A stretch of DNA of 40,628 bases from Acidobacteriota bacterium (GTDB taxonomy: Bacteria; Acidobacteriota; Terriglobia; UBA7540). The position numbers and the translations under genes are program-made. The stretch spans positions 1-40,628 of the forward strand of contig QHZN01000221.1 of assembly GCA_003225365.1 (NCBI GenBank), read 5' to 3'. Positions 3,155 to 34,857 of the stretch are shown piece by piece. The notes under the pieces were generated by a model, which had not been told where the DNA came from, ran no database searches, and saw nothing but the letters and a program-made list of their open reading frames with translations. Numbering within the stretch: position 1 is the stretch's first letter; every line of letters begins with the position of its first letter.

Positions 3155-3610
3155 CGAGCGCCTCTACAAACTCGCCCGCCTCGCCCCGCGTTACTCGTGC
3201 TTCATCCCTCAACCACCAGTTGCGGGCTCTCGCAGACCTTCTGCACGACGATGAGAAACGTTTGTGACGCTGTCATCCTGAGTCCGTCGCTTGTCATTCT
3301 GACCCTGAGCGCAGCGAAGGGGAAGAATCCCTTCATTCCCCGCTCAGGGCAAACTCCGCGAAGGATCTGCTTTGCGGCGGCGTCGGGGAAATCGCCCCTC
3401 TCGAGCAATTGCTTGCCGTGATAAACTTCAACTGGCAGGGAGCAAACTAACGAGGGCGCGTCATGCCTCGCCAGAGTATAATGCGCGAGAAGCATTCGAG
3501 AATTGCAGACCCCGCAGGCGCGGGGTCTGCGCCAGCCTGCCGGAGAGGCGTAATCAAGGGTGACATCGAGCCAGCGCTTCACACCATACCGCCACTGGGA
3601 GCCACTATGA
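3155..3610. repeat. Non-coding gap with a half copy of the TGTCATTCTGAG repeat and a perfect hairpin
   Basis: This 456-nt gap separates convergent genes. It contains a one-armed copy of the dispersed repeat at about 3290-3365 (CTTGTCATTCTGA, then GAAGAATCCC and GCTCAGGGCAAACTCCGCG). A perfect 11-bp stem with a 4-nt loop follows at 3505-3530 (GCAGACCCCGC / GCGGGGTCTGC, loop AGGC). The hairpin lies where both flanking units should end, so it could be a bidirectional transcription end, though it lacks a clear U-tract. I see no credible gene. Confidence 0.65.
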
Positions 3611-4756
3611 TCATGGCGGCGAGGGCAGGTCAAGGGGTAGCAGAATCGAAAAAGTCGTGCCCTCGGCGGCGGTCGCGTCCAGGCTGATGCGCCCGTTGTG
3701 GGAGACAATGATCTTCTGCACCAGCGTGAGCCCCAGGCCAGTCCCGGTCTTCTTGGTGGTATAAAAGGGCAGAAAGATCTTGTCCCGGTCCTCGGCGGCG
3801 ATTCCCACGCCATTATCAGAGACGCGTATCGCCAAATAATCCTCTCTCCCCTGGCGAGTGGGCTCGGCCCCGACTGTGACGCAGCCGTTCTTCGGTTCGC
3901 CGTCGAGAGCCTCGCAGGAGTTTCGCAACAAGTTCATGAATGCCTGCCGCAGGAGAACCTCGTCACCTTCGACGGGCACGAAATCTCCCTCCGAACGAAA
4001 CGCCACATTTTTGAACTGCTCGATCCTGGCAAGGTCGTCCATCACGCCGCGGACAAGTTGGCGCATGTCTACGGCCCGGGTGGCGACCTGCAGGGGTTTC
4101 GAAATCGCCAGGAACTCGGTCACGACTTGATTGAGCGAGCGGATTTCCTGCACGATCTTTTCCGCGTAAACGTGCTGCTCAGGCGGGAGGGATTCCTCAC
4201 GCAGGAACTGTGAGTAACCCGAAATCGTGGCCAAGGAATTTTTGAATTCGTGGGCGATGCCGGCCGACATCGAGCCGAGCGCGGCCAGATGCTCTTTCAA
4301 TCGGACCTGCTCCTGGAGGCGCCGCGTTTCCGTCAAATCGGTCAGAAGGCAGACCGCACCCTCAATCTCATTGGCCGGACCGTGGAAAGGCGAAAGCGAC
4401 ATGCCGAGGACGCGAGTCTCGCCTTTCGCCGTCCGGTATTCGACGGTCTCGCGGGTGACGGTTTTCCCCCCCTCCAGACACTCGCGAATGAGCCCGGCCA
4501 GCGCCGTTTCCGGCCCCAGTATCTCCAGAAAGCGCCGGCGAGCCCAGGTGTCCACGCCCAGCATCGCGCGCACAGCCGGATTCGCCGTGGAGGTCTCATT
4601 TTCGGCGCGCGGGCTCTTGGGGCTGAAGTCAAGCTTCTCGCGCCGCTCCTTGAAAAACTTGTGGATGAAATAGAGGACTACCGCAAGGAGCGCGAGGAAA
4701 AGGAACACGCTTGCAAGCAGCATCCGGGCCTCGAGAGGTGTCAGGTGAAGCGCCAT
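3611..4756 (-). CDS. Membrane-anchored PAS sensor histidine kinase (NtrB-like architecture)
   Basis: About 381 residues from ATG 4756. One N-terminal membrane segment (about 11-31, LLASVFLFLALLAVVLYFI) is followed by a basic stretch, then a PAS domain (about 55-145), then HisKA with phospho-acceptor His169 in SAGIAHEFKNSLA. The HATPase domain has the N box (NLLRNSCEAL), G1 (VSDNGVGI), F box (FLPFYTTK) and G2 (GTGLGLTL). The membrane segment has almost no periplasmic part, so the PAS domain likely senses a cytoplasmic or membrane signal. An upstream in-frame GTG at 4816 exists but adds only a polar, unlikely N-terminus. No partner regulator is adjacent on this strand; the receiver proteins at 1214-3154 converge on it and are possible partners, which is speculative. 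Confidence 0.92.
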   Translation of the reverse strand: MALHLTPLEARMLLASVFLFLALLAVVLYFIHKFFKERREKLDFSPKSPRAENETSTANPAVRAMLGVDTWARRRFLEILGPETALAGLIRECLEGGKTVTRETVEYRTAKGETRVLGMSLSPFHGPANEIEGAVCLLTDLTETRRLQEQVRLKEHLAALGSMSAGIAHEFKNSLATISGYSQFLREESLPPEQHVYAEKIVQEIRSLNQVVTEFLAISKPLQVATRAVDMRQLVRGVMDDLARIEQFKNVAFRSEGDFVPVEGDEVLLRQAFMNLLRNSCEALDGEPKNGCVTVGAEPTRQGREDYLAIRVSDNGVGIAAEDRDKIFLPFYTTKKTGTGLGLTLVQKIIVSHNGRISLDATAAEGTTFSILLPLDLPSPP

Positions 4757-18009: not shown

Positions 18010-18096
18010 CGAGTCGCCGCGACCACCTCCCTCGGCATAGCGCGGCGCTAGCAGTTTGTTGAAAAACGTTTCGCCGCTGTCATTCTGAGCACTTTG

Positions 18097-18228
18097 CTTG
18101 TCATTCTGAGCGAAGCGAAGAATCCCTTTCATTCCGCGCTCAGGGTAAACTCCGCTTAAAATCTGCTTTGCAAGCAGTTGATCAACGGAAGAGAATCTTC
18201 GCCGCCTTCGGTTTCTCAGAATGACAAG
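18097..18228. repeat. MITE-like TGTCATTCTGAG element
   Basis: The left arm is at 18097-18124 (CTTGTCATTCTGAGCGAAGC then GAAGAATC). The degenerate right arm is at 18193-18228 and ends TCTCAGAATGACAAG. A partial extra TGTCATTCTGAG precedes it near 18078. The core holds GCTCAGGGTAAACTCCGC. It occupies the gap between the B12-subunit gene and the short hydratase gene, and its leftmost part runs in frame into the hydratase upstream region. Confidence 0.75.
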
Positions 18229-20715: not shown

Positions 20716-21300
20716 TGTTCGGGGTAGTTGACGCTGGGTTTTTATCCCTGCGAACTGAGCTCGGCCACGCGCGCTCCAATTCCGGCATGAGCCAGAATCT
20801 CAATCCATATTGCATCTTATTTCGCGCCAGGTTCAAAGTCAAAACTGAGGGCGAATTTACGATTCCGAGAGGAATTGTTGCGGGCGCGCGTCCGAGAGCA
20901 TCAAGCCGACTGATGAAAAATCCCTCCACTATGTCATTCTGGGGAGTCCCGATTCATTCCATCGGGACGACGAAGAATCTGCTTGGTTGTCAATTTATCG
21001 ATGAGCAGATCCCTTCGCGGAGCTCAGGGCAGGCTCTTCGCGGAGTTTACCCTGAGCGGGAAAGAAGGGATTCTTCGCTCCGCTCAGAATGACAATTGAA
21101 GAGCTTGCCCTGATCCCGCGTACGCGGGAGAAGGGGCTCAGAGCCTGCCCTCCCTTCGACTCCGCTCAGGGACAGTGAGCGAAGTCGAACTGTGACCAAC
21201 GGGAAGGGATGACAGCGCACAAGCGTTTTTCATCATCCTGCCTGGGGCGGGGGAAAGGAAGGCCATAGTCCCTTGACGAGGGGCCATGGCCTGCCATTAG
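20716..21300. repeat. 585-nt non-coding gap dense in repeats
   Basis: No convincing gene. It contains a TGTCATTCTG element from 20932 to 21094 whose left half carries the GGAGTCCCGATTCATTCC variant and whose right arm ends CGCTCAGAATGACA. The 16-bp palindrome TCCCGCGTACGCGGGA is at 21114-21129. A hairpin at 21155-21189 pairs TTCGACTCCGCTCA with TGAGCGAAGTCGAA (one mismatch). The first 200 nt next to the mutase start may hold the operon promoter, but I cannot point to one. Confidence 0.75.
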
Positions 21301-27012: not shown

Positions 27013-27090
27013 CACGACTGTTGACGCGAGCGCTTGAGTGCTGCATTTGCCATGCTGGGCCCCTTCGCTCTGCTCAGGGCAGGCTCTTCG

Positions 27091-27216
27091 CTTGTCATTC
27101 TGAGCGAAGCGAAGAATCCCTTTCGTTCCGCGCTCAGGATAGACTGCGCGAAGCATCTGCACTGGTTTGAGGGAGCCACGCAAAAGCAGATTCTTCGCTT
27201 CGCTCAGAATGACAAG
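27091..27216. repeat. MITE-like TGTCATTCTGAG element with perfect 28-bp terminal arms
   Basis: This is the best-preserved copy. The left arm 27091-27118 starts CTTGTCATTCTGAGCGAAGC, and the right arm 27189-27216 is its exact reverse complement over 28 bp, ending CAGAATGACAAG. The 70-bp centre contains GCGCTCAGGATAGACTGCGC. There is no coding capacity. The bases flanking the arms do not show an obvious target duplication. Confidence 0.8.
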
Positions 27217-31950: not shown

Positions 31951-34371
31951 ATGATCGGGACCACCGTTTCGCATTATCGAGTACTCGAGAAGCTCGGCGG
32001 CGGGGGCATGGGCGTCGTGTACAAGGCCGAGGACACGCGCCTGGTGCAATACCTGGAAGGCGAAACGCTCAAGCGGCACATCGCCGCCCGGCCGTTGAAG
32101 ACTGAGGAAACCCTCGACTTGGCTCTTCAGATCGCCGACGCACTTGACGCCGCCCATCAGAGAGGGATCATTCATCGCGACATCAAGCCGGCGAATATCT
32201 TCATCACCACGCGCGGGCAAGCGAAGATCCTGGATTTCGGTTTGGCGAAATTGACGCCCGTAGGGGCGCAAGGCCTTGCGCCCCTACCCTTGTGCGGGGT
32301 AGGGGCGATTCATGAATCGCCCCTACTCGATACACCCACGGCGACAATCCAGCCCGAACAACTGACTTCCCCCGGCGTGGCGATGGGCACGGTGGCCTAC
32401 ATGAGCCCCGAGCAGGCACGCGGTGAGCAACTCGACTCGCGCAGCGACTTGTTCAGCTTCGGCGCCGTACTCTACGAGATGGCCACCGGCAAGCAGCCAT
32501 TTGCCGGAAACTCCACGGCGGTCATTTTTACCGCGATTCTCACCCAGGCGCCCGTCTCGCCCGTGCGGCTCAATCCGGAAATTCCCTCGGACCTTGAGCG
32601 CATTATCTATCGCCTAGTCGAAAAGGACCGCGACCTGCGCTATCAGAGCGCCGCCGATTTGGGCAGCGAATTAAAGCGCCTCAAACGCGACACCGACTCG
32701 GGCCGCTCGGCGGCTGTAGCGGCGGCCTCTGACCGCCGTGCGGCGGTGGGGCCTGCCCTGAGCGGAGCCGAAGGGACACCGCCGCTACAGCCAGGCGCGC
32801 AGGCAGCGCCAGGGACTGTTTCACCGCTTACGCCCAGTGCCGGCGCGCCGGTCAGTGCATTGCCGATCCAAGAGACGGCGGCCGTAATCGGGCGGAGACG
32901 CAGCACGCGTCTTGCGCTCGGGGTTGGGGCCGTCGCCGTCGTCGCCATAGCAACCGCATCCATTCTCTATTGGCGATCAAGTCGTCAGACCCGCGCGGTC
33001 CACTCCATTGCGGTCCTTCCCTTCGTCAACGGCACTCGCGACACCGCCCAAGACTATCTGAGCGACGGGATCACCGAGGGCGTCATCAACAACCTCGCCA
33101 AACTTCCGAGCCTGCGCGTCCTGGCGCGCGCCACCGTGTTCCGATTCAAGGATCACGAGGACGACCCGCTCAAGATCGGCCGCGACCTCAACGTGGACGC
33201 GGTTTTGACCGGCACCATGTCCCGCGGGGGCGGCGGCATGGCGATTCAGGCCGACCTCGTCAGCGTCACCGACGGCTCAGAGCTTTGGGGCGAGCAATTC
33301 AATTTCTCTGCTCAGGAACTCGCGAGCGCTCAAGCGCAAATCGCAAAGCAGATATCCGAAAAGCTTCGTCTCCAGCTCACTCCCGAAGAAGCCCGGCAGC
33401 TCGCCAAGGCGCCCACCGAGAACAGCGACGCCTATCAAGCTTACCTGCGCGGGCAATACGCCTATAACCGGCGGACCTATGATTCGCTCAAACAGGCATT
33501 GCAATCTTTCCAGGAGGCGATAGCCCTCGATCCCAACTACGCGCCGGCCTGGGCTGGTTTGGCTGCCAATTACAATGTCATTCCCGGCTACGGCGTGCTT
33601 TCCTCGAACGAGGCTTTTCCCAAGGCCGAAGCGGCGGCGCGCAAGGCGATGGCGATTGATAATTCGCTCGCGGACGCGCACGCGGCGCTGGGCCACGTCC
33701 TGGCAGCCTACGATTGGGATTGGGCGGGCGCCGAACGGGAATTCCAGCTCGCCTTGCAACTTAACCCCGGCGACGCCCAGGCACGATACTTCTACGCCTT
33801 CCTGTGCCTAACGCCTCAGGGAAGGAATGAAGAAGCAATCGCCGAGATGAAGAAGGCGCTCAACGCCGACCCACTCTCTTTGATCATCAACGCCAATTTC
33901 GTTCGGGTCTATCAGTACGCGCGCCAAGACGATTTGGCCATGGAGCAGGCTCACAAGGCCCTCGAACTCGATCCTGATTTCGCCGTGGCGCGCGAAAATC
34001 TCGAAGGTATTTATGAACAAAAAGGAATGATCGAGCAGGCCCTGGGCGAGCTCGCCAAGGGAAACAAGGAGGACCAGAGAATGGCGCCCTTGCTTCGCCA
34101 GGCTTTCGTCAAGTCGGGTGCCCGCGGCTACTGGCAGAAGAAGCTGGAGCTACAGTTGGACCTCGGCAAGCGAGAGTATGTCGCCCCAACCTCGTTTGCC
34201 CTGATCTACATTCACCTTGGCGACAGGGATCGAACTCTCGAGTGGCTAGAGAAGGCGCGCGCCAACCGCGATGATTTTCTCGCGCAGCAGGCGGCCGAAC
34301 CCGCCTTCGATCCTCTGCGCTCCGACCCGCGCTTCCAGGCCCTCCGAAAGAGCATCGGTCTCGCCCACTAG
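31951..34371 (+). CDS. Ser/Thr protein kinase-like protein with TolB-like and TPR domains; kinase N-lobe largely missing
   Basis: 806 residues. The kinase-like domain (1-245) begins [20 protein letters not shown] but jumps at about residue 31 straight to [13 protein letters not shown], so the beta-3 lysine and helix C are absent. HRDIKPAN (75-82), DFGLAK (95-100) and SPEQ (152-155) remain. Residues 104-127, between DFG and SPEQ, come from two palindromes. A low-complexity linker (about 250-318), also partly palindromic, leads to one membrane helix (320-341), a TolB-like region ([20 protein letters not shown]) and TPRs (about 450-790). Known relatives phosphorylate targets and sense via the C-terminal part; here catalysis is doubtful, because the lysine that anchors ATP phosphates is missing. 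ATG 31951 gives the canonical N-terminus. Confidence 0.9.
32260..32326. repeat. Two perfect 28-bp palindromes inside the kinase gene
   Basis: 32260-32287 (GTAGGGGCGCAAGG and its reverse complement) and 32299-32326 (GTAGGGGCGATTCA and its reverse complement) are each perfect palindromes. They share the outer nine bases GTAGGGGCG/CGCCCCTAC and are separated by 11 bp. Together they could fold into a larger cruciform. They encode residues 104-125 of the kinase protein and keep its frame. Confidence 0.9.
32712..32792. repeat. Inverted repeat inside the kinase linker
   Basis: GGCTGTAGCGGCGG (32712-32725) and CCGCCGCTACAGCC (32779-32792) are perfect 14-bp inverted arms. The interior has the palindrome ACCGCCGTGCGGCGGT (32732-32747) and the segment CCTGAGCGGAGCCGAAGGG, which resembles the CTCAGGG-type repeats found between genes. 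It encodes a low-complexity part of the protein between the kinase-like domain and the membrane helix, in frame. Confidence 0.85.
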
Positions 34372-34857
34372 TTCCTTCGCGCCGCCATGTGTTCTGCCGC
34401 CGGCGGTTCGCGCTCTTATACATTAAGGCGAAAGTCGGTGCGAAGCCCAGAGCCTGTCATCTGATCCCTTCGCTGGCTGTCATTCTGAGCGAAGCGAAGA
34501 ATCCCTTGATCTCCGCGCTCTGGGTAAACTCCGCGAGGGATCTGCTTTTCGGCAACTCAACAACAAAGCAGTCGTTCATGTCGCCTTGCGACACCCCGCA
34601 GCATGAAAATGGGTGTCGCGAGCCGGCGAAAGCCAAACTGAAGACAAAGGACTTAACACGAATTTTCGGAGCAGATTCTTCGTCGTCCCGATGAATCGGG
34701 ACTCCTCAAAATGACATCGTCGCGGGGTTTTCCACCACCTTGCCAGAACTGGAAATGCGATTTCCTTGCGAGCCTTTAAGGAAGCAGTACGTCGCAGATA
34801 TTTCGGCTAAACTGCGACCATGCCGCGACGCGCGAAAAGCGCCCGCGAGGTTCGCGC
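34372..34857. repeat. 486-nt gap carrying a TGTCATTCTGAG element
   Basis: The left arm begins at 34478 (TGTCATTCTGAGCGAAGCGA then AGAATCCC). The core has GCGCTCTGGGTAAACTCCGC. The right arm at 34674-34716 reads GATTCTTCGTCGTCCCGATG and ends CTCAAAATGACA; it matches the variant left half at 20932-20985. The middle (about 34560-34670) is unrelated sequence, so this copy may have an insertion. No gene is seen. Confidence 0.75.

Follow-up and report, generated by a model that had tools for sequence, protein, structure and literature searches.

GTAG-tagged palindromes of a dispersed, probably REP-type family lie in frame in a kinase activation segment of an Acidobacteriota bacterium

Two perfect 28-bp palindromes lie in frame in the activation segment of a Ser/Thr kinase gene in the window (the whole stretch of 40,628 nucleotides analysed here), and both are members of a dispersed family with 25 copies in the same genome, placed for the larger part in frame inside genes or directly at stop codons. 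The doublet is shared with a paralogous kinase, and the same protein loops are occupied by different elements in paralogues and relatives. In the best explanation, to which we give a probability of about 75%, the palindromes would be GTAG-tagged REP-type elements that are mobilised by RAYT transposases and kept where in-frame read-through or a stop codon limits the damage.

The ORF carrying the doublet (31951-34371, forward strand) encodes 806 aa with a Ser/Thr kinase domain whose N-lobe is incomplete and with FlgO-like and TPR regions (Pkinase, TPR_11 and FlgO matches); its Pkinase match (E=1e-31) covers positions 77-253 of the 263 in the profile only. The DFG and SPEQ motifs are found at aa 95-97 and aa 152-155, with both palindromes between them, as an earlier note on this DNA had it. 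Palindrome no. 1 (32260-32287, GTAGGGGCGCAAGGCCTTGCGCCCCTAC, centre CAAGGCCTTG) encodes VGAQGLAPL and is followed by an 11-bp spacer (32288-32298) and by palindrome no. 2 (32299-32326, GTAGGGGCGATTCATGAATCGCCCCTAC, centre ATTCATGAAT), either strand of which encodes VGAIHESPL. Both run from GTAG to CTAC with 14-bp arms and no loop, and their outer nine bases are identical, so the lengths, shared ends and spacing described in that note were right to the base. Together they specify a 22-residue peptide; by chance, about 1.5e-4 perfect palindromes of at least 28 bp would be expected in 40.6 kb. Two further features of the ORF were absent from the note: a deletion of about 66 residues in the N-lobe, and a third GTAG...CTAC element (32716-32788), a composite (GTAGCGGCGG...CCGCCGCTAC) that is read in frame in the linker C-terminal to the kinase domain and encodes a 25-residue peptide. 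This third element contains a CCCTGAGCGGAGCCGAAGGG repeat. A second dispersed repeat of about 78 bp (CATTCTGAGCGAAGCGAAGAATC) is also present in the window, in direct copies at 3293-3370, 18089-18166, 27083-27160 and 34468-34545 and in inverted matches near 21056-21113.

Further units, which the note had proposed to look for, were searched for in the 5.16-Mb genome with the pattern GTAGGGGCG-N(4-34)-CGCCCCTAC and, as a control, its reverse, giving 25 matches on 19 contigs and 0 matches, respectively. Twenty-four of the copies are palindromes of 28-30 bp that start with GTAG, and one is a 47-bp composite. The main form is identical to palindrome no. 2, and further copies have the centre of palindrome no. 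1 or the centre GGGTTTNAAACCC. The count of genic and intergenic copies and of frame preservation, likewise proposed in the note, placed 14 of the 25 in frame in Pfam-supported genes: ten in seven kinase genes, and the others in genes for MnmG, an Eco57I methylase, PMI and PolB. One further copy lies close to the beginning of a TPR ORF. Eight copies provide the TAG closing an adjacent frame that is open for 108-1011 codons, and the last two belong to neither placement class. The canonical 28-mer has a single open frame, reading VGAIHESPL on both strands; the only copy read in another frame, in the linker of the kinase on C171, has a variant centre (ATTCACGAAT) that removes a TGA. At an ABC-transporter gene (C354), orthologues already have a TAG at the stop position that the element now provides, which would suit an element that joined onto a TAG present before it. 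Chance or base composition as the cause is ruled out by the empty reversed-pattern search in the genome and by the viral-contig controls described below.

A predicted RNA fold of the 77-nt region around the doublet reaches -51 kcal/mol (z = -5.9), and REPs have been thought to act on mRNA ends (PMC3733652). Together with the eight copies directly at stop codons, this fold would suit palindromes that serve as nucleic-acid signals, that is, mRNA hairpins for stability, attenuation or termination, with coding incidental; but more than half of the genome's copies lie within coding sequence, where strong hairpins are unlikely to help, and no conserved gene set goes with them, which leaves such a role improbable.

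The genome holds about 28 kinase genes, seven of which have an element or a remnant of one in the activation segment. The note's statement that such kinases do not normally have a peptide of this kind thus failed for six other paralogues of the same genome. The window copy (C29) and C171 carry the same doublet with equal spacing, C35 and C190 share a VGAxFKPAPT insert, and C173 and C205 each have an element; C360 retains a remnant, GI-HESPLQ, at a deletion that took out HRD to DFG, and has a second element in the beta3-alphaC loop. In C360 (L140, about 3323-3650) HESPLQ follows directly on ...SKGI in the frame, an arrangement that a deletion fusing the catalytic loop with the latter half of a palindrome would give. 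When shared inserts are counted once, the activation segment was occupied at at least four independent places, for which random placement gives P ~2.5e-9 (calculated with 29 kinases of 48 codons), a value that measures landing plus survival, not targeting. The alphaD-alphaE loop, the beta3-alphaC loop and the C-terminal linker of kinase genes gather insertions as well. Among relatives, the activation segment holds other GTAG palindromes (G009, GTAGGGGCACGCCATGGCGTGCCCCTAC) and REPIN forms (G017, G023 and G011), some relatives and paralogues have unrelated dispersed repeats there, and many paralogues are empty. A repeat encoding (M)LRSAQH(E/D)... was observed in the activation segments of the C233 kinase (L259) and a G008 kinase (L303). 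Because such insertions gather there repeatedly, the loop seems to be a place where they land and are tolerated, not a switch by design.

The doublets of C29 and C171 are identical at 64 of 67 nucleotides, above their flanks, in which identity drops with distance; the doublet probably predates the divergence of the two kinase copies. This conservation relative to the surroundings, the recognised regulatory nature of the activation segment and the seven kinases of one genome with an element or remnant could also be read as adaptation, the peptide tuning kinase activity or adding phosphorylation or binding sites and being kept by selection. We regard this as unlikely: unrelated repeats fill the activation segment of further paralogues and of relatives, repeats also gather in two more kinase-domain loops (beta3-alphaC and alphaD-alphaE) and in the C-terminal linker, the same peptide occurs in MnmG, PolB, PMI and a methylase, and the affected kinases include one without its N-lobe core (the window copy) and one without HRD to DFG (C360).

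The window copy differs from its paralogues by an alignment gap at the junction 32041-32047 (forward strand), at which it lacks about 66 residues from beta2-3 to beta5, the VALK lysine and alphaC glutamate among them. Alignment columns 32-98 are gapped in the window protein alone, and the lysine (column 38) and glutamate (column 70) are nearly invariant in the others; the deletion, at about 32044, leaves the reading frame intact. Judged by the criteria for active Hanks-type kinases, the gene lacks the VAIK lysine and the alphaC glutamate and has HRD and DFG, whereas the copy on C171 is complete. With these N-lobe residues absent, the gene probably does not encode a conventional active kinase, and it may specify a pseudokinase or be in decay; alternatively, two paralogues may have been misassembled at the junction. 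The proposed location of the palindromes in a regulatory loop is borne out, since they do lie in the activation segment, but a regulatory role of the insert is unsupported because this loop, like other loops and the linker, hosts many kinds of repeat and because the region of the ATP-binding lysine is missing. Most likely, the insert adds a floppy stretch to a length-tolerant loop; that it tunes the kinase is conceivable but unlikely.

Relatives were compared in a set of 61 genomes (the own genome and 60 others), of which 26 match the pattern once or more, with up to 41 matches each and with centres that vary from genus to genus. True REPIN forms (GTAG-hairpin-spacer-hairpin-CTAC), with GTAG outside each local hairpin, occur in the nearest relative, G001. 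One loop of MnmG holds GTAG palindromes or REPINs of differing sequence in eight genera of the family, the own genus included: palindromes in the own genome (GTAGGGGCGATTCACGAATCGCCCCTAC), G009 (GTAGGGGCACATCATGGTGTGCCCCTAC) and G007 (GTAGGGGCGCATCGCGATGCGCCCCTAC), a related form in G008, a GTAGGGGAGGGCTC REPIN in G004, G017 and G018, and another GTAG composite in G003. In several other genera the loop contains non-GTAG repeats or no recognisable repeat, and in MnmG orthologues of other families (for example, L283, L284, L286 and L288) no insert was found in it. In G001 (L354) a 10-residue peptide occupies the same loop and the frame is broken just after it, reflecting a pseudogene or an assembly error. 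The PolB loop has different repeats in several relatives, and the PMI insert occurs in the own genome only, with a net gain of 24 nt over five relatives that have no element; a 29-nt variant does not fit a simple rule of 24-nt insertion. Orthologues without elements, which the note had suggested seeking, were thus available in the more distant MnmG and in the relatives' PMI. Its refuting observation, distant orthologues all carrying the same peptide encoded without palindromy, did not turn up, related kinases being either empty at that place or occupied by another palindrome or repeat. When DNA flanks were compared with those of 20 relatives, no clean empty site proved near enough in sequence for a target duplication to be read.

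The filling of the MnmG loop by differing GTAG palindromes in many genera, and the inserts common to C35/C190 and to C29/C171, would also be expected if the elements were old and orthologous and gene conversion or template switching had swapped their sequence to the host's current family, that is, by replacement rather than new insertion. Such a history is possible but doubtful, given that several genera have a non-GTAG repeat or no recognisable repeat in the MnmG loop, that none occurs outside the family, and that insert positions in kinases vary in detail among paralogues.

Among published systems, GTAG REPs and REPINs (PMC3733652; Nunvar et al. 2010, PMC2817692) are close to the present family and share with it a length of 20-40 bp, a terminal GTAG, dispersal, occasional doublets, the use of TAG as a stop codon and some in-frame intragenic copies. 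For GTAG REPs, Di Nocera et al. 2013 (PMC3733652) described the use of the tag as a stop codon, copies within genes and, in part of the genomes, an association with RAYT genes. The published tag is unpaired, whereas GTAG here pairs with CTAC in a fully symmetric palindrome, and GTAG REPs are mostly extragenic, whereas 14-15 of the 25 copies here lie in frame inside genes; recurrent landing in the kinase activation segment and one identical 28-mer in many phyla are further differences. A REPIN consists of two inverted REPs; in the window doublet the relative orientation of the two palindromes is undefined, each being self-symmetric. In-frame read-through is shared with the intragenic REPs of Opitutus terrae, Thauera and Xanthomonas recB (PMC3733652); different REPs occupy about one site in recB of two Xanthomonas species (PMC3733652), and recurrence at the same site here extends to several gene families, across a bacterial family and among paralogues of one genome.

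The note had been reminded of the palindromic elements of Rickettsia (RPEs), and the likeness holds at the level of function: the units are dispersed, palindromic, in frame in genes for conserved proteins (here MnmG, PMI, PolB and kinases) and apparently tolerated, as has been reported and reviewed for RPEs (PMC2229807; PMC3733652). It does not extend to kinship. RPE-4 and RPE-6 belong to the CGTC class, whose tag is not linked to transposases (PMC3733652), and other RPEs measure 105-146 bp (PMC2229807), whereas the present units are GTAG-tagged, 28-30 bp long and have relatives of REPIN type, a form that, like the GTAG tag, RPEs lack. A relationship was rejected on tag class and is very improbable.

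In the best explanation, the palindromes would be copies of a short mobile unit (about 24-30 bp) that is non-autonomous and is moved by a RAYT (Y1 HUH tyrosine) transposase, which acts on single-stranded DNA; the target may be a short GTAG-like sequence. In other phyla, two RAYT genes contain the 28-mer shortly after their HUH motif (L072, Pfam-supported, and L123, called with a profile built in this analysis), a further copy lies at a weak Y1-like ORF (L024, below the cut-off), and GTAG palindromes or REPINs occur near Y1_Tnp genes in L376, L380, L390 and L396. The own genome has two Y1_Tnp matches on short contigs with no palindromes nearby, and no palindromes of the GTAG...CTAC window family were seen alongside the Y1 transposase loci examined in relatives. 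We therefore infer RAYT mobilisation of the window family from its resemblance to GTAG REPs and from these other phyla. Kinases would not be targeted specifically; copies would survive only at places where the harm is small, either immediately at a TAG stop codon or in permissive surface loops, where the open frame GTA GGG GCG ... gives VGA...SPL or VGAGLKPAPT. The kinase activation segment, from DFG to the P+1 loop, would be one such permissive site, in which elements gathered repeatedly, and the insert itself would be near-neutral.

At least 115 stretches, representing about 15 or more phyla, contain the exact 28-mer; the genomes listed are from Acidobacteria, Chloroflexi, Deltaproteobacteria, Pseudomonadota, Clostridia, Omnitrophota, Bacteroidota, Balneola, Nitrospirae, Spirochaetia, Elusimicrobia, Binatia, Fibrobacterota, Zixibacteria, Shapirobacteria and Microgenomates, Symploca, WOR-3 and Glassbacteria. 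Single cross-phylum cases may be misbinned because most of these are metagenome bins; Balneola EhC07, which also carries the 28-mer, is not labelled as a MAG. In the cross-phylum set, 14 of 94 copies lie in read-through ORFs of at least 200 codons and most lie outside long ORFs, and stop-codon copies show a modest excess (19 of 94, with 10.1 expected). The exact 28-mer is also present on ten IMG/VR contigs (L358-L367); in the same collection of putative viral contigs a control centre, a scrambled palindrome and the centre of palindrome no. 1 each gave 0 matches. Two Nitrospirota-type genomes (L027 and L096) have the 28-mer in frame in a gene that seems to be common to both, and this insert may have been kept by vertical descent. 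A literature search with the DNA core returned only an unrelated Leishmania qPCR paper, and one with the encoded peptides returned nothing. Since a perfect palindrome with one open frame gives the same peptide from either strand, we tentatively propose, as a rather unlikely reading, that a minimal mobile palindrome of one exact sequence, shaped for tolerance within proteins, circulates between phyla and that such REPs repeatedly supply new surface-loop sequence, with kinase activation segments preferred.

Beyond what was known, the present family adds the symmetric GTAG...CTAC form, an intragenic majority, recurrent filling of particular loops throughout a bacterial family, kinase activation segments that serve as a sink, and a 28-mer common to many phyla. 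The name REP implies an extragenic element, and here a GTAG family of REP type is mostly intragenic. Its recurrent landings in the kinase activation segment, the MnmG loop and the PolB loop involve different elements in different genera and form a natural insertion series in known proteins, on which tolerance, drift and a possible gain of function can be tested. The occurrence of one exact 28-mer in many phyla raises a testable question, that of horizontal spread versus convergence of REP elements.
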